A stretch of DNA of 57,651 nt, from positions 1 through 57,651 of the forward strand of contig JBFLWK010000011.1 in NCBI GenBank assembly GCA_040757695.1, given 5' to 3'. This document shows, one piece after another, positions 4,382 to 29,906 of this stretch; position 1 is the first letter of the stretch; every line of letters begins with the position of its first letter. The stretch is from Elusimicrobiota bacterium. Lineage in GTDB: Bacteria; Elusimicrobiota; UBA8919. The translations under genes and the position numbers were made by a program. Below the pieces are notes generated by a model. That model was given only the letters and a program-made list of their open reading frames with translations, was not told the DNA's origin and did no database searches.

Positions 4382-5788
4382 CTATTCCAACGGCTTAACC
4401 AGATATCCCGGGTTGTTCAGCACAGTAATTGTTTTGTTTTGTAGATATTTTTGAACCCATGTGTTGAGTCGTTCCTGCGGTGATTGAGTATTTTTTCCCC
4501 AGAATAGAAACGGTAAAAGATGATAATCGCTTTCAGGGATGCCATCTTGTATAATATGCAAATTACCCCAGCCGAGATAATTCAGTATTTGGAAAATGTC
4601 AACCGGTTTCTGTTTACCGATTTTGTAATCCGCACTTACAACCTCAACGACTTTTGTTAGCGCTTTTTTGATTCTATTCGCTTCGCTCACCCTACATTTA
4701 TCATCGTGTTTATTTAATTCATCCATCCCGATTTTCATCAGATTTTTGAACTCCTCATTACCCCAACTCTGATTACAGGGTGCGACTACTAATATCGTCC
4801 CGCCTTTTTTTACCGCTCTATATGCTGCGTGGGTTGCTTTACCCATCTGATAGAGATTCACACCCCATGCACTTGCGCCAGCAATAATAATATCCGCCTG
4901 TTTTTCAGTATAAACCGTCCATACATTTTTCAGCACCTCTGCGGCACGACGATGCGCTTCAAACAGTTCGCCGCCTTCTAAATAAACCAAATCGTCTTCA
5001 GTATCTATGATTGATACGATTGTATAGACCTGTTTTCCCTGCTTTCGCAGTGATTCCAAAATTGTTTTAACAATTCTTACTTTTGTCTCAAAAACAGGAT
5101 TTTTATCCATAATTCCAAGCCCGACATTTTTAGCAAAACCTTCAGGCCCGAACATTTGCAAGTGCTCATATCTGATGGTATCCATATCACATACACCAGG
5201 ACAGAATGATTTTGGACCACCTGCGACACCAGCGAAATAATGGTTTTCCACATCGGTTAACGGGATTATTATGTCAGAATTATACACCACTGAATCAATT
5301 TTTATTTTTTGGCCATTCAGTTCGCCAACCTCAATATTGTTTTCTTTGCATTTATGGATTACATAATTGACTTTGCCGAACATTTGTTCGCCTAAAATTT
5401 TTTTAAGTTCATCATCCGTAGGCGGTCTGTGTGTTCCAGTTGCAATAACAACCTTTATTTTAGTAAGTGGTAAGTGGTAAGTAGTAAGTAGTAAGTCAAC
5501 AAGTATTGGTAGGAGCAGTCGTGTATGAATGTTTGGTCTATCGTGGTCATCGGTAATAATACAAATATCACCATCTTTATAGTTTTCTTTGATAAGAGAA
5601 CTTAATGGTTTCTGTTTGCCAATTGGTTTTTCAAGTGCAGAGAGCAATTTCTCTTTGACATTTTTTATCACAGGTAGTTTTTGTGGAAGAATTAACGGTA
5701 GAAACTTTTTTTCGTCAATCGTTTTTTGTGGAATGAAATCACGGAGAACTTGCGCGCCATAATTTAATACAATCTCATTAGATAACAT
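4382..5788 (-). CDS. larA: LarA-type nickel-dependent lactate racemase homologue
   Basis: Member of the LarA family (DUF2088). Lactobacillus LarA interconverts D- and L-lactate with a nickel-pincer nucleotide cofactor. The LarA residues can be placed: GTHRP with H120, H183 in NHYFAG, K193 in GGPKS (matching the cofactor-binding Lys184) and H209 (matching the Ni ligand His200). The K193 to H209 spacing of 16 equals the LarA spacing. The protein is 468 residues versus about 424. Two repeat-derived stretches add unusual sequence: residues 97-110 (LLLTTYHLPLTK region, from a 7-bp tandem repeat) and about 365-373 (CRVSEANRI). The start overlaps the CoA-transferase stop by 11 bases. No larB, larC or larE is in the window. 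Other LarA-family substrates are possible. Confidence 0.85.
   Translation of the reverse strand: MLSNEIVLNYGAQVLRDFIPQKTIDEKKFLPLILPQKLPVIKNVKEKLLSALEKPIGKQKPLSSLIKENYKDGDICIITDDHDRPNIHTRLLLPILVDLLLTTYHLPLTKIKVVIATGTHRPPTDDELKKILGEQMFGKVNYVIHKCKENNIEVGELNGQKIKIDSVVYNSDIIIPLTDVENHYFAGVAGGPKSFCPGVCDMDTIRYEHLQMFGPEGFAKNVGLGIMDKNPVFETKVRIVKTILESLRKQGKQVYTIVSIIDTEDDLVYLEGGELFEAHRRAAEVLKNVWTVYTEKQADIIIAGASAWGVNLYQMGKATHAAYRAVKKGGTILVVAPCNQSWGNEEFKNLMKIGMDELNKHDDKCRVSEANRIKKALTKVVEVVSADYKIGKQKPVDIFQILNYLGWGNLHIIQDGIPESDYHLLPFLFWGKNTQSPQERLNTWVQKYLQNKTITVLNNPGYLVKPLE
4675..4696. repeat. Dispersed repeat read in frame in larA
   Basis: The sequence around ATTCGCTTCGCTCACC matches the ATTCGCTTCGCTTCACC found between genes at 2659-2675. 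On the coding strand it is read as CRVSEANRI, about residues 365-373 of the racemase homologue. This hydrophilic stretch looks foreign to the family. Confidence 0.7.
5464..5498. repeat. 7-bp tandem repeat (five units) inside larA
   Basis: Plus-strand units are taagtgg, taagtgg, taagtag, taagtag, taagtca. On the coding strand they give the LLLTTYHLPLT peptide. Seven is not a multiple of three, so loss or gain of a unit would shift the reading frame. Confidence 0.85.
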
Positions 5789-10785: not shown

Positions 10786-12680
10786 TTACTTTACCTCCAA
10801 TTCTAAAATAACTGTTTTTTCACCACCCTGGTCATCCTGAACAGAACAGGCGATTGTCTGTTTTCCTGTTTTTGGAAATTCATATTCAACAACTAAAATA
10901 GGTTTACCAGTAGTTTTATCTCTTAAAAATGAATATCCTTCTGTTGACGAAAATTTACCTGTGTAATTAAAATCCCATTGGACATTAGCAATCATACCGT
11001 CTTTATTAAAAGATACTGATTCGGAAACATCAAATTTATACTTCAATTTACTAATCCTGTTAATTTTGACTTGGACATCAGGTGGCTGGACAAAACTTAA
11101 TAATCCACCGTAGTCCTTATGTTTTGTTATAATATGTTCACGGTATTCATTTGATTCAAGACGGATTAGAGATAAACGGACAAAATCTATTCGCTTGTTT
11201 TCTCTTGCTGCTAATATCTCTGCTGCTCTTTTTGCATCAGGAGCAAAGTTCCATGCCAGCATTGTTCCAAAATTAGTTTTTCTATCCTTAAAAATTGCTT
11301 GAGAAAATTTTTTTACATCTTCCTGTGTAATTTTTGTTTTTCTGGATGGTTCGCCTACTAAAGAGGCACTCCTGCCCGTGAACCATGAATATTTGGTGAA
11401 ACATTTTCTGGCTTTCCGCCAAACGTCTTGACCACAAATTCCCTGAATTCTTCTTTTGACAATTTTTCAAGACGTGGTATCTCATAAATACCCCAGTGTT
11501 CAACTGTAAAATCTGGGATTGCTAGTAGTGATTGTTGAATCAATTGTTTTTTCTTTCCTTCTTCCTCCACTTCACCACACAAGTCTTCAACCACTCTACA
11601 AATTCTATCAGCAGTAATAGCAACAGCAATCCTTGACTGGTCGCAACCTATCCATCTGCGGTTAAGTTTCTGCGCCACCGCTAATGTAGTCCCACCACCA
11701 CAGAAAAAATCCGCTACAATATCGCCCTCATTAGATGATGCTTTGATAATTCTAACAACTAATGCTTCTGGTTTTTGAGTGGGGTAACCTATTCTCTCGA
11801 GATTGTCAGGTTCTGTGCCCAGAACATTAATGTCTTCCCATACATCTCGTGCTATTGCGAGGTGGTACCACTTTTGCTCTTTTTCATCAAAATGCTCTGG
11901 ATATTTCTCACTGAAGTTATATTTTTTCTGTTGCCAAGATTTGTAGTGCTGAACATTAAAATTGTATTTGTCTGTCTTTGTGTAAAATAAAATGACATCG
12001 TGTTTCCTTGCGAAAGTCTTTTTACTTGTTCCTCCGGTACGGTAACCCCATACAATTTCGTTTCTAAAATTATCACTTCCAAAAATTTTATCCATTTCAA
12101 CTTTTACATAATGACTTGCATGCCAGTCAAGATGGACATATATTGAACCAGTATCTTTCAATAATCGTTTCGTTTCATATAACCGAGCATTTAACCACAC
12201 CAGATATCCCGGCATACCACCTTCCCAGATATCAGAAAAAGAACGGATTTCGTTTTTGTCGCCAAATATAACATTATAATTCCGACCAGAAAAGAATGGT
12301 GGGTCAATATAAATTAGGTCAATTGATTTTGACGGTAACTGTCTCATTATGTGCAAGTTATCACCAAAAAATAGTCGGTTTGCACCTTTCGGGAAAAGTT
12401 CAGATAGATTCCCGCTTTCGCGGGAATGACAGGAAGGCGAAAATTTTTCGCTATGCCCAAACTCAACTTTTCGGACTTCCTGAAATGGCAGGAAAATACG
12501 AGGATAGGTATGCTCAAACTTGGTTATTTTTGTCTTTCTTGATTCTATTTCAACTTCCCAACCAAGAGGTGCTTCATCAACCGGGACAGAACCAAATCTG
12601 GCAGGTATTTTATAAAACTCCGCTTGTTTTGGTATCTCAACTTCTACAGAGATGGTTTTATTATTTTCATTTTCACTCAT
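10786..12680 (-). pseudogene. Type III-like Mod DNA methyltransferase, broken by a one-base frameshift
   Basis: Beta-class DNA methyltransferase (motif IV before motif I). Motif IV IDPPF is at about residues 125-129 and motif I DFFCGGGTT at about 324-332. The first frame stops at 11358-11360, straight after GVPL. One base over, the frame continues as VGEPSRKTKITQEDVKKF and runs through 10786, giving a C-terminal domain of about 190 residues. A single missing base between TTTA and GTAGGC explains it; the intact protein would have about 630 residues. The start ATG overlaps the epimerase stop (ATGA), so translation is coupled. Residues 84-92 (CHSRESGNL) come from a palindromic repeat. A sequencing error cannot be excluded. 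Confidence 0.85.
12408..12427. repeat. ATTCCCGC...GCGGGAAT palindrome inside mod
   Basis: 8-bp arms around TTTC. The same kind of palindrome lies between genes at 30642-30661 and 53540-53605. Here it is read in frame as part of CHSRESGNL, a peptide typical of translated repeats of this class, in the N-terminal part of the methyltransferase. Confidence 0.85.
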
Positions 12681-13078
12681 ATTTTTTGTACCAATTCTAT
12701 CAATACGCCACCTGTTGATTTCGGATGAGCAAATGCAACTTTTGTATTATGTGCGCCTTCGCGGGGTTTTGTATCAATCAGAGTATAGCCCGCTTGCGCA
12801 ATTTCAGAAAGTGCCTTTTCAATATCGTCAGTTTCAAACGCAATATGATGGATACCTTCGCCTTCTGTTTCAATAAATTTTGCTATAGGACTTTCAGATG
12901 TCAACGCTTCTAAAAGTTCTATATTGGTTTTACCGATTTTTAGAAATGCAACCTTTACTTTGGCAGAAGCGACTTCTTCAATACCACTGAATTCAAGTTT
13001 AAGCGTATCCCTGTAAAGTTTAAGTGCACTCTGAATACTTTTTACCGCAATACCGATATGATTGATATTTTTCAACAT
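12677..13078 (-). CDS. mce: Methylmalonyl-CoA epimerase (VOC family)
   Basis: Interconverts the 2R and 2S forms of methylmalonyl-CoA. The chain begins [15 protein letters not shown] and contains GEGIHHIAFETDDIE and LIELVQK, the usual VOC metal-site segments (His in NHIGIAV and HHIAF, Glu in LIEL). I chose the ATG at 13078 over an upstream GTG because the family starts at this point. The ATG overlaps the MeaB-like stop. The gene's own stop overlaps the methyltransferase start. Length about 133 residues is normal. Confidence 0.95.
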   Translation of the reverse strand: MLKNINHIGIAVKSIQSALKLYRDTLKLEFSGIEEVASAKVKVAFLKIGKTNIELLEALTSESPIAKFIETEGEGIHHIAFETDDIEKALSEIAQAGYTLIDTKPREGAHNTKVAFAHPKSTGGVLIELVQKI

Positions 13079-13782
13079 TTTGTCCCATGAACAAAACACG
13101 AATTCACACGAATATTTTCTATGGTTTCTACTAATTGTCCAATACCTTTTTTTTGTGTAGCAACTGTTAAAATTACGGGAATACCGAGTATTGATTCTAG
13201 ATGTTCAACAGATACATTGTTGTTTAAATCAGTTTTGTTCACAACGAGCACATCAGCAATTTCTATAATACCTGCTTTTAATAATTGTATATCGTCAAGT
13301 GTATCGGCAGTAGTCACTAAAACAACCGCATCAGCAATTTTTTTGATTTCTGTCTCATTCTGACCTGCACCAACTGTTTCAATGATAACAATTTCATAGC
13401 CAGCATTATCCAGAATTTTTACTGCCGGCTCAACCGCTTTTGACAAACCACCGAGAGAACCACGAGTTGCAAAACTTCTGATAAAGACATCTTTATCAAG
13501 TGTATGCGATTGCATTCGGATTCTATCGCCGAGCAATGCACCTTTTGTTTTTGAACTTGACGGGTCAATAGCGAGCACCCCAATTTTTTTGTTTTCTTTT
13601 CTGTATTCGGCTATAAGACAATTTATGAGTGTACTTTTCCCACAACCGGGCGGTCCTGTTATGCCTATTACGGCTGTTCTTTTTTTGTAATTTTTGAGTT
13701 GTTGAAGTATTTTTTTGCCGTCGGGTGTTTTATCTTCAACAGCACGGATTTGTTCAGCAATTTGATTAATATTGAGGTTCAT
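13072..13782 (-). CDS. MeaB/ArgK-type G protein, shortened
   Basis: GTPase chaperone that guards and reloads methylmalonyl-CoA mutase with B12. P-loop GPPGCGKST is at 43-51; [24 protein letters not shown] and VNKTD follow. It has 236 residues against about 300-330 for MeaB, because it ends soon after the G domain. The last residues ([14 protein letters not shown]) are encoded by a CACGAATTCACACGAAT-type repeat, so the C-terminal arm used for dimerisation appears lost or replaced. ATGA overlap with the small mutase subunit. Confidence 0.9.
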
Positions 13783-14165
13783 AATAACTTAAAATATTTT
13801 TTAAGATATTCTATGATTTTGGTTGTTGGTGTACCTGGTGTAAAGATTTCGTCAATACCCTTTTTTTTCAGAAATTTAATATCTTTATCTGGAATAATTC
13901 CACCTGCAAAAACAATTTTTTTTATACCCTTTTTTTTCAGCAGATTTGTTATTTTCGGAAGCAAAACATTGTGTGCACCTGAAAGTATAGAAATGCCTAT
14001 AGCATCAACATCTTCTTGAATTGCTGTTTCAACAACCATTTCCGGCGTCTGCCTTATGCCTGTATAAATAACTTCAAAACCCGCATCTCTTAAGGCACGG
14101 GCTACAATTTTTGCGCCTCTATCGTGTCCATCAAGACCCGCTTTTGCAATCAAAATCCGAATCAT
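13779..14165 (-). CDS. Methylmalonyl-CoA mutase, B12-binding small subunit
   Basis: Cobalamin-binding domain of the split mutase. It begins [19 protein letters not shown], where H14 in the DxHxxG motif is the cobalt ligand. SILSGAHN and FAGGIIPD follow. I chose ATG 14165 because GAGGT sits just upstream and the family begins here; an upstream extension to 14249 reads through a palindrome. Overlaps the MeaB-like gene by ATGA. Works with the large subunit encoded upstream. Confidence 0.93.
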
Positions 14166-14305
14166 CACAACCTCTAAAACGCTGATTACCGCTGATTTGA
14201 TGGCGAATGACATACTCCCCGCAGCAAGCTGCGGGGTATTCGGCGACATTTAAATAAATTCGTCCCTACCACGCAGATTTACACGGATTTTTTTTCAGCG
14301 TTGGT
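14166..14305. repeat. Repeat-filled gap between the two mutase subunit genes
   Basis: Contains CCCCGCAGC-AA-GCTGCGGGG at 14217-14236 (9-bp perfect arms, 2-base centre). It is flanked by degenerate gctgatta/gcagattta/cacggatt units (about 14180-14200 and 14264-14290) like those at 36449-36500 and 53480-53545. No gene seen. The palindrome could pause transcription or shape the mRNA between subunits. Confidence 0.7.
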
Positions 14306-15967
14306 TTAAATCACTCTGCTTGGTTGATATTCGCCGAATACATTCCTTAAAACATCGCATATCTCGCCGACGGTTGCATAATTTTCAACTGCTTCAATTA
14401 TCACAGGCATTAAATTCTCATTCATTTTGGCAATTTTTTCTATTTTTTTGACTGCGCTTTCAACTTTTTTATTATCACGCTTGCTCTTTAGTTTCCTTAA
14501 ATTAAGAACCTGTTTTTTTTCAACTGTTTGTGAAACTTTCTGGAGTTTCTGTTTCGGTTTTTCATCTGTTTGATATCTATTCACGCCAATAACGGTCATC
14601 TCGCCTGTTTCAATTGCTTTCTGATATTGATATGCGGATTCCTGAATCTCTTGCTGAATAAATCCGTTTTCTATCGCTTTAACCATTCCACCTATTTCAT
14701 CAATCTTTCGGATATACTCTGCGGCTTGTTTTTCAATTGAATCGGTCAATGTTTCAATAGCATATGCGCCGCCTAACGGGTCAATCGTATCGCAAACTCC
14801 GCTTTCTTCCGCAATGAGTTGCTGGGTTCTTAAAGCAATCCGAACCGATTCTTCCGTCGGTAATCCCACCGCTTCATCTTTGGAGTTTGTATGAAGTGAT
14901 TGCGTTCCGCCTAAAACGGCAGCGAGTGCCTGTAAAGTAACACGCACGATATTATTCTCCGATTGCTGTGCGGTTAGTGTACAGCCATCCGTTTGAGTAT
15001 GAAATCTTAACATCTGTGATTTCGGATTTTGCGAGTGAAATCTTTCTTTCATTATTTTTGCCCAGAGCCGTCTTGCAGCACGGAATTTTGCGACTTCTTC
15101 AAGAAAATTATTATGGCAGCCGAAGAAAAAAGAGAACTGTGGTGCGATACTGTCAACGGATAAGCCCGCTTTTATACAATGGTTGAGATACTCAATCCCA
15201 TCCGATAGAGTAAACGCAACCTCTTGAACCGCATTAGCACCCGCTTCTCTTATATGATAACCACTTATTGATATAGCATTCCATTTGGGCAAATTTTTTG
15301 AACAGTAAGAGATTATATCCGTAGTTAAACGAAGCGATGGCTCAGGCGGAAAAATATAAGTGCCTCTGGCGATATATTCTTTAAGAAGATCGTTCTGAAC
15401 GGTTCCTGAAAGTTTTGAGATATCTATATTTTGTTTTTTTGCAACGATTATGTACATCGCTAAAATTATCGCAGCGGTAGAATTGATTGTCATAGAAACC
15501 GTTACTTTATCCAATGGGATTCCATCAAATAATTTTTCCATATCAAAAAGCGAATCAATCGCAACACCGACTTTGCCAACTTCACCTTCTGATAATTGAT
15601 GGTCAGAATCATAACCTATCTGTGTAGGCAGGTCAAAAGCAACTGAAAGACCCGTCTGACCTTGTTTCAAAAGATATTTGTATCTTTTATTTGTATCTTC
15701 AGAAGTCCCGAACCCAGCATACTGCCGCATCGTCCACAGCCGTCCACGGTACATCGTCGGTTGAACCCCACGAGTATACGGGAACTCGCCTGGAAACGAA
15801 AGTTTCGCAAGGTAATCAAACTCGTCTAAATCTGACGGAGTATACAGGCGAGCGATTTCTAGTGATGAAGTTTCAAACTTTTTTTTTCTTTCTGGATGGG
15901 CAGATAACAATGGAGCAACCTTTTCCGCTTCCCATTTTTGTTTGGCTACTTTTATTTTTTCATTCAT
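14306..15967 (-). CDS. Methylmalonyl-CoA mutase, large (catalytic) subunit
   Basis: Converts succinyl-CoA and methylmalonyl-CoA with B12. The TIM-barrel segment carries the family mark [20 protein letters not shown] near residue 66. [28 protein letters not shown] and [15 protein letters not shown] follow. At 553 residues it lacks the B12 domain, which the downstream gene supplies, as in archaeal and many bacterial split enzymes. A related isobutyryl-CoA-type mutase cannot be fully excluded, but the epimerase and MeaB neighbours support methylmalonyl-CoA. Confidence 0.95.
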
Positions 15968-23671: not shown

Positions 23672-26600
23672 CTACAGTTGCTCTTCTATCCAGCCTTCAA
23701 TCTCAAGATATGATTGTTTAAGTTTGTCTAGCTGCTCATGAGTAGCATCCCAGTAACCGCGTTTATTAGCCTCAAAAAGTCTATTGATTATCTCAGCAGT
23801 TGCCCAACGGTTATTCTCAACTAATCTCTTTCTCATTTCTTCATCAAAAATATAACGCTCGGCAATTTTATCAAACATCCAGTTATCCACTGCACCTGTG
23901 GTAGCAGCAAATGCAAAAACATATTCCACTCTATCTTTGATATGCTGAGCACCGTGATATTCATGTTTTAGCATCTCATCTATCCATTTTGGATTAAGAA
24001 CCCTTGTCCTGACTCCACGACGAATCGTCTGTTCAACAGATTCTGTGTGGATAAATTCCTTAGTTGAATCGGAATAATACATCTCAGGTTTTTTACCTGA
24101 TTCAACCTCTACAGCTTTAGATGCGCCGCCAAAAAATTCATAATAATGGTCTAAATCAATCACTTCATATGCATGATGGCTTCTTATTTGAGAGACAATA
24201 TCTACTCTTGAGAGAAGTTTTCGATAAATTTTGTCTGCTCTTTCACAATGAAGATTATCTGCATATACATAATTAACACTTTTTATGAAGACATCAGCAA
24301 TCTGTTCCTCTTTTTCCCAGTTAGAAGTTTCAATTAAAGGTCTTACCCTGGTAGCATATTCTCCAGGAGGAGGACCATATATTCGTGCATGAGATATCTT
24401 TTTTGCTGTCTTTTCATCAAACTCTTTTTTTGCATCTTCAAAAATTTCTTTTGAATGTAGTTTTACATAATTCATCTCATCCGGTTCATCCAGACCCGCT
24501 ACCATCTTGAAAGCATCATCCATCATTGTAATTAAATTGCCGAACATATCTCTGAAAAAACCACAAATTGTAATACAAACATCAATTCTGGGTCTTTTAA
24601 GTTCTTCAAGAGGAATGATTTCGGGAGTTTTAACTATACCTTTTTTCTTAATCCGCACCCCTACATATCTCAATACCTGAGCAATGGTCTCACCATAAGT
24701 CTCTGATGTTTCAAAGGCCCAGAGAGTTACATTTACTGTTTGAGGATATTTATTATGTTTTTTGAAGTATTCTTTTATAGTATTCTCCGCAACTTCTGCC
24801 CCTCTCTGATAAGCAATATCAGTTGGAATAAGATTTGGCTCAAATTCATAAGCATTCCTTCCTAAAGGAAGAACCTCGGGTGTTCTTATAGGATCTCCAG
24901 CTAAACCAGCATCTGAATATTCACCATTCATAAGTCTGGATAAAGTATTCATCTCTTCTGTTTTATTCAAATTATCTACAACTTTTTTTGCAAATTCTAA
25001 AGTATTTTTAAGATCTTCCCGGCTCGTACCAGAAATTTTTATTCTGCTTAATGTTTTACCGACTCCCATTGTAATGAAATTTTCTACTATTTCTTTAACC
25101 CGACTATCTATTTCGGCTAAAATTTCTGCATTTGTTCTGTTATTACTTTTCTTTGACGGATTCTTATAGATATATTCATAATCAAGCCCTTTTTTTTCCG
25201 CAAGAATTCTGTTTAATGATTTTATCTCTCCCCGATCATATCTAAGTACAGAAATAATAAAGTTTATAGTATCTTCTTCATCATATTTTTCGTCAAAGAT
25301 ATGAAGCCCTTTTGGGATAAGTGACCTTTTTGCCATATATAGCTGATCATAAATTGAATCAATATCTCCTCCTTCAAAATTTGCTTTTTGAGCAACTTCC
25401 AATATTTTTTTATAAACCATTTCTGCCCTTCCTGGATCATGGGTTCTTGCTTGATAATATTCTCTGATAAGTTCATCAAGGTCCGCAAGTTCATCATAAA
25501 GTTCAGAAGGAACGTAAGCGGGAGACAGGTGAGTATCCATTATTCCATAACCACGCCGATGGGCAACAGTACCTTCAGAAGGAGCATTTATTATATGATA
25601 GATATACAGATGAGGCATATTGCCGATTAAAATGTCCGGGTAACAGTTTTCAGTTAACCCATTCTCTTTACCAAACAGAAGTTCTAATGTTCCATGTGTC
25701 CCAACATGTACACATATATCTGCTTCCCATTTTTCTTCAAGCCACCTGTAGAAGCCGATATACTGATGGTGGGGTGGAAGTTCCTTGTCATGATAAACTT
25801 TCTCAGGATCTTCATGTATTCCTCTTGACGGCTGAAGTCCAATAAATATGTTTCCAAGTTCTATACCGGGAAAATATAAATTATTATCCCAACACATTAT
25901 CTTTCCTGGCAATTCTCCCCACGAAGGGAACATTTTTTTCTTAGCTTCCTCTGGCAATTTCTCAAATAATCTTTGATATTCATCTCTATTCAACCACTTC
26001 CCTTTGAATTTTTCCTTTGGTATCCATTTACCAGAATTTACAATACCCCAGTCAGTAAACAGCTTGTGCAGTTTCTCCTTTGGAAGTTCACCGACATTAT
26101 ATCCTTCCTGTTTTAATCTTTTCAGTATTTTTTCCATACTGGCAAATGTATCAAGGTATCCTGCACATCCCAAATTATCTTCACCTGGTGGATAATTAAA
26201 CATTATAAAAGCAACTTTTTTCTCTGAATTAGGTTTTTCTCTTATTTTTAACCAGTTTGATACTCTTCCTATCAACCTTTCAATACGGTCTTCAATTGGT
26301 TGCATTGTGTTTATTTCACCAATTTTTTCATACTTTCCTTTCGAAAGACCACTTATAGGAATAGGTTCAACACAAGCATCAATTTCCGGGAAAGCAATAC
26401 CTGATATTACCTGTGGTGGATTAAAACCTTCTTTTGAATTTAACCAATCATCTATTTCCTGAATTACCATTGGTTTGGTATTAAAAACAGGGACATTAAG
26501 TTCCTTGAGGAGTTCTATCGTATCCTGACCACCAGCAAAAGGTGAACCTTCAGTCATCCTCCAGTATTGAAGATTTATTATTCCATCTAATTTTATCAGT

Positions 26601-27442
26601 TTTCCCTTTCTGGTAAGGAGTTTCCTGAACATATCTACATTCTGAATGGATGAGAATACAGGAATTATATTTGCTTTTTTCTCTAATTTATCAAGAAAAA
26701 AATTTATTGTTTCTAAGCATTCTTCGTAAAACCATCTTCCATAATAAAGTATAGCCAAAATAGGTTTAGTTTTATCAAAATAATATTTGGAAAGAAATCC
26801 ATCTAGACTTGTAAATGTTCTTTCGATTTTAGGATGATAGATTGCCATATCAGGATTTTTTATCGGTTTTTTCACATATTTAAGTAGATGTTTATGTCCG
26901 CCATACTCTCCTAAAAGTAATAAAAGTAAACTTTTGAAATTTTCTTTTCCTCCATAATTGTAATAATCCATTATTTGGGTCCAGTTTCTTCCATCTCTTA
27001 AAGCGCCTATCGGTAGAAGTCCTCCCAGCCGGCTAATGACTTTTTTCATAAACTGTCCTCTTCTAACATAGTTCTTTGTTTCTAAGAAATCCATCTCTTC
27101 TTTTTTTATTTTGCTGCCTAAATGAAACGAACCAATTCTTGCCATTTTCATTGTATCAAAATCGCCACCAATAGGGATAAAGATATTATCTTCGTTCCTT
27201 AAAGCCTCGCACAATATTAAACCCGCTTTCCCAAAACTTTGACCTGCTGTGTAGATTACCACGTCCGCCTCTTTTGTTTCTTTTTTTACTATTTCGTCGT
27301 CAAGAATTTCAAAGTCAATCTTAGCAGACTGGAAATATTTCAGCTCCAAGATATTACCATATTCTTTTTGAATTTCATCATATGCAATAAGTAAATTTTT
27401 AACAAATGAGCCAGTATGTCCTGAAACAATTACTATTTTCAT
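23672..27442 (-). CDS. CobN/BchH-family metal chelatase large subunit
   Basis: 1256-residue porphyrin/corrin-binding subunit of a class I chelatase, which inserts a divalent metal with help of an AAA+ motor. [18 protein letters not shown] and [15 protein letters not shown] match the conserved core; the sequence has both CobN-like (GTHGTLE) and BchH-like ([11 protein letters not shown]) marks. The start overlaps the ChlI-ChlD fusion stop by 4 bases. Cobalt for B12 (used by the mutase here) is the plain guess. However the operon is controlled by NikR-type sites, so nickel is possible. No other corrin genes are nearby. Confidence 0.9.
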
Positions 27443-29358
27443 AGGGTTACCTCCGAACGGACAATGGTTGCAAGTTTTTCTGCTTCTAATTCATCAAGAT
27501 GATAATATTTTGCATCGCAATTCTGGGCAAATTCTTTTGCTAAACCAAGACGGGGATAACCAGATTCTGTATCTATAACGATTGTGTGCAGATTCCTCTT
27601 TTTTATTTCTTCAGCACAGGTTTTGAGTTCACTCAATATATTCCCTTTTGTTGAAACATTTCCTTTGCCGTCAGTTATCAGCACCAGTATAGGAATTAAA
27701 TTATCGTTTTTGACAATTTCGTTTTTAATTGTTTCTATCCCTCTAATAATCCCTGCAGGCAAAGGAGTTTTTCCACCAGTGGGTAGTTCTCTAAGCCGCT
27801 TTACTGCCAGATCTTTACTTCTTGTAGGTGGAAGCAAAGTATACGCATCTTCGTTTCTGAAAGCAATCATAGCAACTCTATCCCGTTTTCGATAAGCTTC
27901 CGTAAGTAATGAAAGGATAGCTCCTTTTGCTGACTTCATTCTTTCCTTTGCTCCCATAGAGCCACTTGCATCTACAACAAAGGTAATTAAAGATGCACTT
28001 TTGGCTACTCTTATCTTCTCACGAATATCTTCCATTTCTATTTTGAACTCACCATTTTTGCTCCTGCCAGCAGCAGCTCTAACTGTTGCATCAATGGCAA
28101 TATCTTTAATTTTTTCCTGAGGTATTTTTGCTTTTATGTATTTGCCCTGTTTTGATTTTGTTAGTGTTTTTGAACTTCTGCCCATTGATCTCCGATAAAC
28201 CTTGTCTTTTCTCCTCTCAAGAATCTTTTCTGCCTTTACGATTGCACCTATATCAAAAACCTCTTCTTTTGGGATTTGAGCTTCTAAACTAGATTTTTTT
28301 CCTTCCGGTTTCACTTTTTGTGCTTCTCTTGACTTTCCAAAAGCTTGTTTCAGTTTTTCCTTACTAATTTCGGGCTTTTCAAATGGTTGCTTCCTCATTC
28401 GGTGTTCAAGGCTAAATTCCAACGCTTCAAGAACATCTGCTTCTATTACTTTTCTTCTTCCATTAAAAGCGGCAATAGCCTTTGCAGTCTTAGTAGTAAT
28501 AATATCAGCCCTTAAACCATCTACAGCAAAATCTATGCATACCTGACTTATCATTGATAGAAATTTATCAGAGATACGAACACCCGTTAGGAGTTTCCTT
28601 GCCTGCAATATTTTCTGACGGAGTTCAGCTTGGGCTTTTTCAAATTCTTTTTCAAACAAGAAATGCTCTCTATCAAATTTTTCACGGAGTTTCACAACCT
28701 TAATCCTTTGGTTTTTATCTTCAATTCTTTCAACTCTAACGCTCAAGCCAAACCTGTCTAAAAGCTGTGGCCTGAGTTCTCCTTCTTCAGGATTCATTGT
28801 TCCGATAAGAATAAATTTAGACGGATGATAGACACTTATACCTTCTCTTTCTACAACATTCACTCCCATTGCTGCAGCATCTAAAAGAACATCAGCAATA
28901 TGATCATCTAATAAATTAACCTCATCAATATATAATATCCCTCTGTTTGCTTCAGCAAGTATCCCTGGTTCAAGGGCTCTTATACCATCCCTTAAAGCCT
29001 TTTCAATGTTCAAAGCTCCAATTACCCTATCTTCAGTCGCGTTGATTGGCAGGTCTATCACAAGCATCTTCCTTTTTTTAATCGGTAATCTTTTACCGGC
29101 TTTTTTTCTTTCCTGGCAGGTTTTACACATCTCTTTCAAATTATGAGGATTACAACTGAAGGGGCAATCAGCAACCACTTCTACTTCTGGAAGCAAATCA
29201 GCAAGTGACCTTACTGCTGTAGATTTTGCCGTTCCCTTTTCGCCTCTTATCAATACACCGCCAATCTTCCAATCAATTGCATTCAATAAAAGGGACTTCT
29301 TCATTTTTTCCTGTCCTACAATAGCGCTAAATGGATAAATCACATGTTTATGATGCAT
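27439..29358 (-). CDS. ChlI-ChlD fusion, AAA+ and vWA chelatase motor
   Basis: ATPase partner of the CobN/BchH subunit. AAA+ domain: Walker [10 protein letters not shown], Walker [33 protein letters not shown] Cys cluster (CPFSCNP...CKTC) lies near the start. A basic linker (about 340-450) leads to a vWA domain with [16 protein letters not shown] use ATG 29358, with AAGGAG 11 bases upstream; a GTG at 29370 lies too close to that site. Bacterial cobaltochelatases of the CobN + ChlID type have this architecture. Confidence 0.9.
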
Positions 29359-29399
29359 TTTTATTTCCACTCCTTATGGATATTATGTTTTTCTAATTC

Positions 29400-29427
29400 G
29401 TGTTACTATCAAACAAAAAAATAATAC
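29400..29427 (-). promoter_or_regulatory. NikR-type operator before the chelatase operon
   Basis: Read on the minus strand: GTATTAT-N14-GTAACAC. One half is a perfect GTAACAC, the other matches GTGTTAC at five of seven bases. It lies in the 70-base gap between nikR and the ChlI-ChlD gene, about 40-70 bases before the start codon. Confidence 0.65.
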
Positions 29428-29430
29428 TAC

Positions 29431-29844
29431 CTATATTTCTTTACCAGTTGTCGCCATAGTTAAAGAACCGTGTTTTACACCTTTGGTAGATTTTAGTTTA
29501 TCAGCCAGGTTTTCAACTTCTTTAGGATTGCCTTTTACTACAACCATCTCTAAACAATTATCTTCATCTAAATGCACATGCTGAGAAGAAATAATCAAAT
29601 CATGAAACTTGTGTTGAATATTGGTTAAATTATTTACCAGTTCTCTTTTATGGTGATTATAAACCAATGTAATTGTTCCTGCTACTTCTTTACCTTCAAT
29701 CCATTCCTTTTTGACAAAATACTCATTGATTAAATCTCCTATCGCTTTGGACCTGGTAGGATAATTTTTCTCTCCAATCTCTTTATCAAACTTTGTTACA
29801 AGGTCATCATCAAGTGAAATGTTGAACCGTTTCAATTTAGACAT
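29431..29844 (-). CDS. nikR: Nickel-responsive regulator NikR
   Basis: Ribbon-helix-helix repressor (residues 1-45, RFNISLDDDLVTKFD) with a C-terminal ACT-like nickel domain. All four Ni ligands are present at the E. coli spacing: H78, H89, H91 and C97 in QHVHLDEDNCLE. 137 residues is standard. It is transcribed toward the chelatase genes. A NikR-type site overlaps its promoter, so it probably represses itself. AGGGA ribosome site 8 bases before ATG. Confidence 0.95.
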   Translation of the reverse strand: MSKLKRFNISLDDDLVTKFDKEIGEKNYPTRSKAIGDLINEYFVKKEWIEGKEVAGTITLVYNHHKRELVNNLTNIQHKFHDLIISSQHVHLDEDNCLEMVVVKGNPKEVENLADKLKSTKGVKHGSLTMATTGKEI

Positions 29845-29860
29845 TTTTAATTCCCTGTTA

Positions 29861-29906
29861 GTGTTACATTATTTATAATTGTAACATATTAATAAACAAA
29901 AATCAA
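29861..29906 (-). promoter_or_regulatory. nikR promoter with overlapping NikR-type operator
   Basis: Operator GTGTTAC-N13-GTAACAT at 29861-29887 matches the GTGTTAC-N13/14-GTAACAC form I recall for NikR of delta-proteobacteria. A sigma-70 promoter on the minus strand overlaps it: TTGATT at 29901-29906, 17-base spacer, TACAAT at 29878-29883. Nickel-bound NikR would cover the -10 box and start site. Confidence 0.8.

Follow-up and report, generated by a model that had tools for sequence, protein, structure and literature searches.

In a stretch of 57,651 nucleotides from an Elusimicrobiota bacterium (the window, by which we mean the stretch at its full length; the genome comprises 2.89 Mb at 99.0% completeness), a gene for the nickel-responsive regulator NikR precedes both genes of a class I chelatase, a ChlI-ChlD fusion (ChlID) and a large subunit of the CobN/BchH family, and two putative NikR operators lie on either side of nikR. 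Control of this nikR-chlID-cobN operon by NikR is very probable, and regulation by nickel through NikR is well supported. The reading as a whole, that of a nickel-starvation operon for the import of a nickel chelate and the ATP-driven release of its metal, we regard as evenly poised.

The nikR gene (29431..29844, minus strand) encodes 137 amino acids and scores 183 bits on NCBIfam NF003381 against a cut-off of 105. The protein combines a ribbon-helix-helix domain with an ACT-like domain that carries a His/His/His/Cys nickel site. As evidenced by alignment to its PDB matches, NikR from Pyrococcus horikoshii (2bj1) and from E. coli (1q5v), the ligands H76, H87, H89 and C95 (E. coli numbering) are all conserved, bearing out what a first, sequence-only reading of this DNA had said of the protein. 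The ChlI-ChlD fusion (27439..29358, minus strand), the ATPase half of the chelatase with its AAA+ and vWA modules (Pfam Mg_chelatase, AAA_lid_2 and VWA_2), reaches 770 bits on NCBIfam TIGR02442, slightly below the cut-off of 779, and likely starts at the ATG at 29358, which is preceded by the ribosome binding site AAGGAG, rather than at the GTG at 29370. The large subunit (23672..27442, minus strand, 1256 amino acids) matches PF02514 with 1116 bits, passes the BchH model TIGR02025 (903 bits, cut-off 829) and stays under the curated cut-off of the CobN equivalog (TIGR02257, 679 bits against 822). Its closest solved structure is ChlH and not HmuS, and by eye its N-terminus shows no obvious signal peptide. 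The three genes probably form one operon that is already under the control of the operator upstream of nikR; as they run head to tail, with a gap of about 72 bp between nikR and chlI and an overlap of 4 bp between the chlID stop and the cobN start, the autoregulated nikR promoter would govern the chelatase, too, whether or not the second site is functional.

The first operator, GTGTTAC-N13-GTAACAT (29861..29887), overlaps the -10 box of the best promoter upstream of nikR, a sigma-70-type sequence TTGATT-N17-TACAAT (29878..29906, minus strand; TTGATT at 29906-29901, TACAAT at 29883-29878). The second, GTATTAT-N14-GTAACAC (29400..29427, minus strand), lies within the gap between nikR and chlID, 3 bases past the nikR stop and some 42 bases ahead of the likely chlI start. 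With inverted GTGTTAC-type half-sites at a nickel-gene promoter, the repeats share both half-sites and both spacings with the delta-proteobacterial NikR operator, GTGTTAC-[N13/14]-GTAACAC (PMC545781). When the 57.6-kb window was scanned with 7-bp half-sites, permitting A/G and C/T at the variable positions, these two repeats, which the sequence-only reading had placed correctly, were the only ones to attain the full score of 14/14, as compared to 0.4 in block shuffles. That reading had put the second repeat before the chelatase genes, which is right, with the correction that the site sits between nikR and chlI and that a strong sigma-70 promoter, looked for at this position, was not evident. 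Note that the promoter scan, taken as a whole, did not rise above shuffles (10 versus 8.4), and that a genome-wide operator scan at two mismatches gave noise (86/91 matches versus 83/111 for the reversed control).

The arrangement recurs within the genome, where three nikR copies are 88-91% identical; there are just three exact N14 sites, one about 3 bases past the stop of each copy. In all three cassettes the N13 site sits over a good promoter, the two paralogous ones carrying TTGACT/TTGACA-N17-TATAAT at the equivalent position. In the window, nikR and operator are followed by ChlID and CobN/BchH. The second cassette (C5) continues with a TonB receptor, a periplasmic binding protein (PBP), a FecCD permease, an ATPase, a Gate protein, CobN, ChlID, ExbB, ExbD and TonB, and its ATP-binding cassette (ABC) genes are of the BtuFCD type; the third (C78) continues with a 264-residue outer-membrane-like protein, a DUF4198 protein, a protein of 148 residues, CbiM/NikM and CbiQ/NikQ. 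Across the three cassettes the N14 half-sites are identical at 14/14 positions and the N13 half-sites at 12/14, both differences being C/T, while only 17/39 four-fold degenerate sites are identical throughout. The cassettes are thus not recent copies, and the operators appear to have been kept by selection. The C5 NikR differs from the other two by an in-frame duplication of three residues, EWI, directly after the DNA-binding domain (L009 4472-4894). A fourth nikR, 61% identical, is found upstream of another TonB receptor (C4). The gap between these two genes, like the nikR promoter of a distant relative (G149), holds GTGCTAC/GTAGCAC direct repeats 13 bases apart, a variant operator seen near NikR proteins whose DNA-contacting strand reads RFGVSL (G000:C4:37992, L017 5993-8702; L033 3761-3787); proteins with RF(S/N)ISL go with the GTGTTAC type instead.

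Two genomes of this phylum are the only ones with nikR beside CobN, and none of 76 related loci shows this adjacency; the link was therefore tested in other lineages through operator sites. NikR is also encoded in 20 of the 22 genomes queried, two of the 20 being Endomicrobia relatives. At 18 loci of such NikR-bearing genomes outside the phylum, the motif was scored against dinucleotide shuffles upstream of CobN, PBP, FecCD, ChlID, Gate and TonB-receptor genes. NikR-like sites with p<0.05 were found in 8/31 CobN-operon regions and in 6/123 other promoters of the same loci (Fisher exact 0.0015), a comparison to be read with the caveat that individual sites had been inspected before it was fixed and that orthologous promoters are not independent. 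The combined p was 4.5e-5 for the CobN-operon regions versus 0.996 for the other promoters, and 0.46 or more for each of 14 permuted consensuses. Held-out CobN copies from the same genomes gave 4/22 (combined p 0.008), as compared to 1/33 controls (p 0.57). Strict sites (score >=12.4) over all related loci numbered 2 outside this genome versus 2 in shuffles, and the signal is confined to the comparison in which each promoter region is set against shuffles of itself and against other promoters. The enriched lineages are unrelated to this phylum and mostly archaeal, and by eye the better sites fall on the promoter, for example on the TATA-like box of Archaeoglobus, Baldrarchaeota and DHVE2. A Baldrarchaeum locus (L184 5212-5239) has GTGTTAC-N14-GTGTTAC, with perfect half-sites in direct orientation, just ahead of a PBP-FecCD-ATPase-CobN-ChlID operon. 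The scan that the sequence-only reading had called for thus shows the motif enriched before chelatase genes with respect to controls, although it is degenerate and not universal.

Within the phylum, matches to the window CobN occur in 5 of 295 sampled genomes. In G149 a single array comprises hydrogenase-maturation genes, nikR, NikM, DUF2162, ExbB, DUF2149 and a CobN (CobN1) with an apparent signal peptide, followed by a TonB receptor, a BtuFCD-type ABC system, Gate, a further CobN, ChlID, ExbB, ExbD and TonB. CobN1 resembles the HmuS type, with 9d26 as its best PDB match. A ZnuABC-type importer (L034 5523-8163) adjoins the array on the opposite strand, and NikR stands beside ZnuABC in Methanothermobacter as well (PMC3087415). 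In another relative (G053) a CobN gene lies ahead of CbiM-CbiQ-CbiO-type genes, and a third candidate (G189) was rejected, being a true cobalamin CobN with cob neighbors. In the tree, the window CobN falls into a group of 13 proteins from Archaeoglobus, Methanothrix, Baldrarchaeota, Thermofilales, Salidesulfovibrio and Elusimicrobiota that is sister to phototroph BchH. The C5 CobN is placed among methanogen proteins, many of them adjoining PBP/FecCD/ATPase genes, and the exported G149 protein among HmuS-like, DUF2149-linked ones, with the actinobacterial cobaltochelatases elsewhere. Three Methanothrix genomes (G313, G314, G316) have 6-8 CobN-family matches each, several of them by PBP/FecCD or ExbB/DUF2149 genes. 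A membrane protein with a Gate domain (PF07670), possibly a channel for metal or ligand, recurs by CobN/ABC genes in bacteria and archaea (L009 9793-10794, L033 16021-16995, L040, L094). A scan of viral contigs returned nothing.

Tetrapyrrole synthesis was assessed by family searches, each of which was positive in 10-14 of 14 control genomes. HemB, HemC and CbiX had no matches in the 99.0%-complete genome, and the single protein of the tetrapyrrole methylase family is the 16S rRNA methylase RsmI, so that precorrin methylases are lacking, too. The chelatase is therefore not accompanied by corrin synthesis, nor does the genome hold a route to protoporphyrin or (bacterio)chlorophyll, and in the tree the window protein stands outside the phototroph clade. 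The window does encode a B12-dependent methylmalonyl-CoA mutase (13072-15967), part of a minus-strand cluster (12677-15967) with a B12-binding subunit, MeaB and a probable epimerase, and as corrin synthesis is absent the cofactor must be imported. A cobalamin riboswitch lies between BtuCD-type genes and a TonB receptor, ahead of the latter (C53), and a weak one, below cut-off, is found upstream of CobO-CobU-CobT-like genes on the same strand (C69), with gene names at both places assigned by inspecting translations. At the NikR loci, no such riboswitch turned up in a search. With no tetrapyrrole route, the B12 genes elsewhere and no riboswitch at the NikR loci, insertion of cobalt or magnesium for synthesis explains the operon poorly. 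Nickel demand is evident from matches to the large subunit of NiFe-hydrogenase (C19 and C63). A LarA-family protein, mentioned here for context as a possible nickel user, is present as the sequence-only reading had it (4382..5788, minus strand; Pfam Lar_N 134 bits, LarA_C 28 bits); its tie to the chelatase extends just to the nickel that LarA may need.

We favor the following scheme. With plentiful nickel, Ni-loaded NikR would occupy both operators, the one at the nikR promoter and the one before chlI, and repress the operon; a repressor seated over the promoter would imply expression when nickel is scarce. Under shortage the operon would be switched on together with its two sisters that share the nikR-operator cassette, one for a TonB receptor and BtuFCD-type importer with a second CobN-ChlID, the other for a NikMQ-type nickel importer. 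As the cell makes no tetrapyrroles, the CobN/ChlID complexes would find their substrate in a nickel chelate taken up from outside, for which a nickel tetrapyrrole of the F430 type or another nickel porphinoid is the likeliest candidate, and would use ATP to pull out the metal and supply the nickel enzymes. Binding and repression at these operators are inferred from sequence, as is the direction of the reaction, de-chelation rather than insertion, from the context described; the nickel tetrapyrrole as substrate is a guess guided by the chemistry of the family. The preference for import and ATP-driven release draws on two precedents. In nickel-limited cells, and only there, Methanothermobacter marburgensis has high levels of CobN1 and NikR1 (PMC12350162). 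For HmuS, a CobN homolog that shares the fold, de-chelation of heme is proven (PMC12583661), and BtuS1/2 are required to release iron from heme (PMC12583661, PMC6460266). The sequence-only reading had found nickel-responsive control hard to explain for cobalt or magnesium and had proposed nickel insertion or a role in nickel/cobalt homeostasis. Control by nickel, and a part in nickel homeostasis in preference to a cobalt or magnesium function, is supported well outside the window, too, by the three cassettes, two with CobN/ChlID and one with NikM/NikQ-type uptake, and further by the sites before related operons elsewhere and by the induction of CobN1 in the methanogen.

Several observations weigh against this scheme. 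CobN/ChlH complexes with ATPase partners are known in the direction of insertion, NikR can bind other metals in vitro, and the NikR of Helicobacter pylori also activates some genes. We found no direct precedent for an ATP-driven cytoplasmic de-chelation by ChlID-CobN, and HmuS works in the periplasm without ATPase partners. The archaeal sites are degenerate and of mixed orientation, many loci are without a site, and adjacency of nikR and CobN, present in two genomes of the phylum, is absent from all 76 related loci. The substrate, finally, could be a nickelophore that is not a tetrapyrrole.

This last point leads to the strongest of the alternatives, in which CobN/ChlID would be an ATP-driven metal stripper of changed ligand specificity that releases nickel from a nickelophore or a Ni-peptide. 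The PBP and ATPase components match heme/corrinoid and siderophore systems alike and pass no equivalog cut-off, and the ligand is not fixed by anything in the sequence; the characterized CobN, ChlH and HmuS proteins, however, act on tetrapyrroles (PMC12583661), and we consider this version unlikely. Less likely still is a chelatase working forward, which would make a nickel cofactor by loading nickel into a metal-free tetrapyrrole that the cell scavenges. In its favor, metal insertion is the normal reaction of class I chelatases with ChlID, and the TonB receptor and ABC genes could bring in the ring. CobN-type chelatases of methanogens were indeed once proposed as the nickel chelatases for F430 (PMC3087415). 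One would not, however, expect an operon that consumes nickel to be reserved for times of nickel shortage, the genome is without tetrapyrrole synthesis or CbiX, and no tetrapyrrole-nickel enzyme was identified, though Mcr-like genes were not searched for. Moreover, the F430 pathway relies on a class II enzyme, CfbA, to insert its nickel. Nickel insertion, as suggested by the sequence-only reading, hence finds no support: no tetrapyrrole is made, and a nickel-repressed operon by importers fits acquisition and release better than consumption.

That cobalt is inserted into or removed from scavenged corrinoids for the methylmalonyl-CoA mutase of the window seems quite improbable. NikR can bind cobalt in vitro, the mutase genes are in the window, and the best NCBIfam match of the C5 protein is cobaltochelatase CobN (TIGR02257, 811 bits, below the cut-off of 822). 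Yet B12 uptake and CobO-CobU-CobT salvage lie elsewhere near cobalamin riboswitches, the NikR loci have no such riboswitch, corrin synthesis is absent, and the G149 system stands beside NiFe-hydrogenase maturation genes and NikM. Just as improbable is a chance effect, in which the N14 repeat would be no more than 3' sequence copied along with nikR and nickel would exert no specific control over the chelatase. The cassettes are paralogous, so the shared flank is partly inherited, and there is no clear promoter at the N14 site. The half-sites, however, were kept while four-fold sites drifted, the cassette heads two chelatase loci that lie apart and a nickel importer as well, the chelatase genes follow the autoregulated nikR promoter in any case, and sites recur ahead of CobN operons in other lineages. 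A magnesium chelatase for a chlorophyll-like pigment can practically be dismissed: BchH scores, the ChlH structure match and the sister position to phototroph BchH notwithstanding, HemB and HemC are missing, the proteins close to it in the tree come from a sulfate reducer and from archaea that are not phototrophic, and the operon is very probably under NikR.

Read as a nickel-starvation operon, the system resembles HmuS/BtuS of Bacteroidota (PMC12583661, PMC6460266) in that a CobN-family protein is tied to the uptake of a metal complex and to metal salvage under limitation, and the G149 relative even holds an HmuS-type CobN with DUF2162/ExbB/DUF2149. It differs in the metal, nickel by regulation instead of iron, and in having NikR as regulator; unlike the periplasmic, membrane-anchored HmuS without an ATPase partner, the window CobN lies beside ChlID, has no apparent signal peptide and is not of that type. 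With the NikR regulons of delta-proteobacteria (nikMNQO, nikK, hydAB; PMC545781) it shares the operator consensus and a NikMQ-type importer, but those were reported without a chelatase or BtuFCD-type importer. M. marburgensis likewise pairs a CobN homolog with a NikR homolog, both strongly produced only under nickel limitation, but this archaeon synthesizes F430 and B12 itself, and the data are proteomics only, giving neither operator nor mechanism (PMC12350162). Finally, CobNST and ChlHID have the same composition of a large CobN/ChlH-type subunit and an AAA+/vWA partner, but serve B12 or chlorophyll synthesis, pathways that are absent here. In the open-licence literature we found no paper that ties NikR operators to CobN/ChlID.

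What is new is the placement of a putative metal-salvage chelatase in a nickel regulon, a real and well-supported regulatory link. Methanogens and other anaerobes hold many CobN paralogs, and those of methanobacteria are not associated with cob genes and have unclear functions (PMC12583661); control by NikR offers a testable answer, nickel, for part of them. Tentatively, and with less confidence than for the operon itself, we suggest a widespread, so far unrecognized mode of nickel scavenging, in which NikR would control the import of nickel tetrapyrroles, such as the F430 that methanogens shed and the products of its breakdown, CobN-ChlID would then strip them of their nickel at the expense of ATP, and the orphan CobN paralogs of methanogens and Archaeoglobi may recycle F430 nickel when the metal is short. 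If nickel tetrapyrroles are de-chelated, this would be a class I chelatase driven by ATP in the opposite direction and a new route of metal scavenging, and it would link the turnover of F430 to the nickel supply in anoxic sediments.

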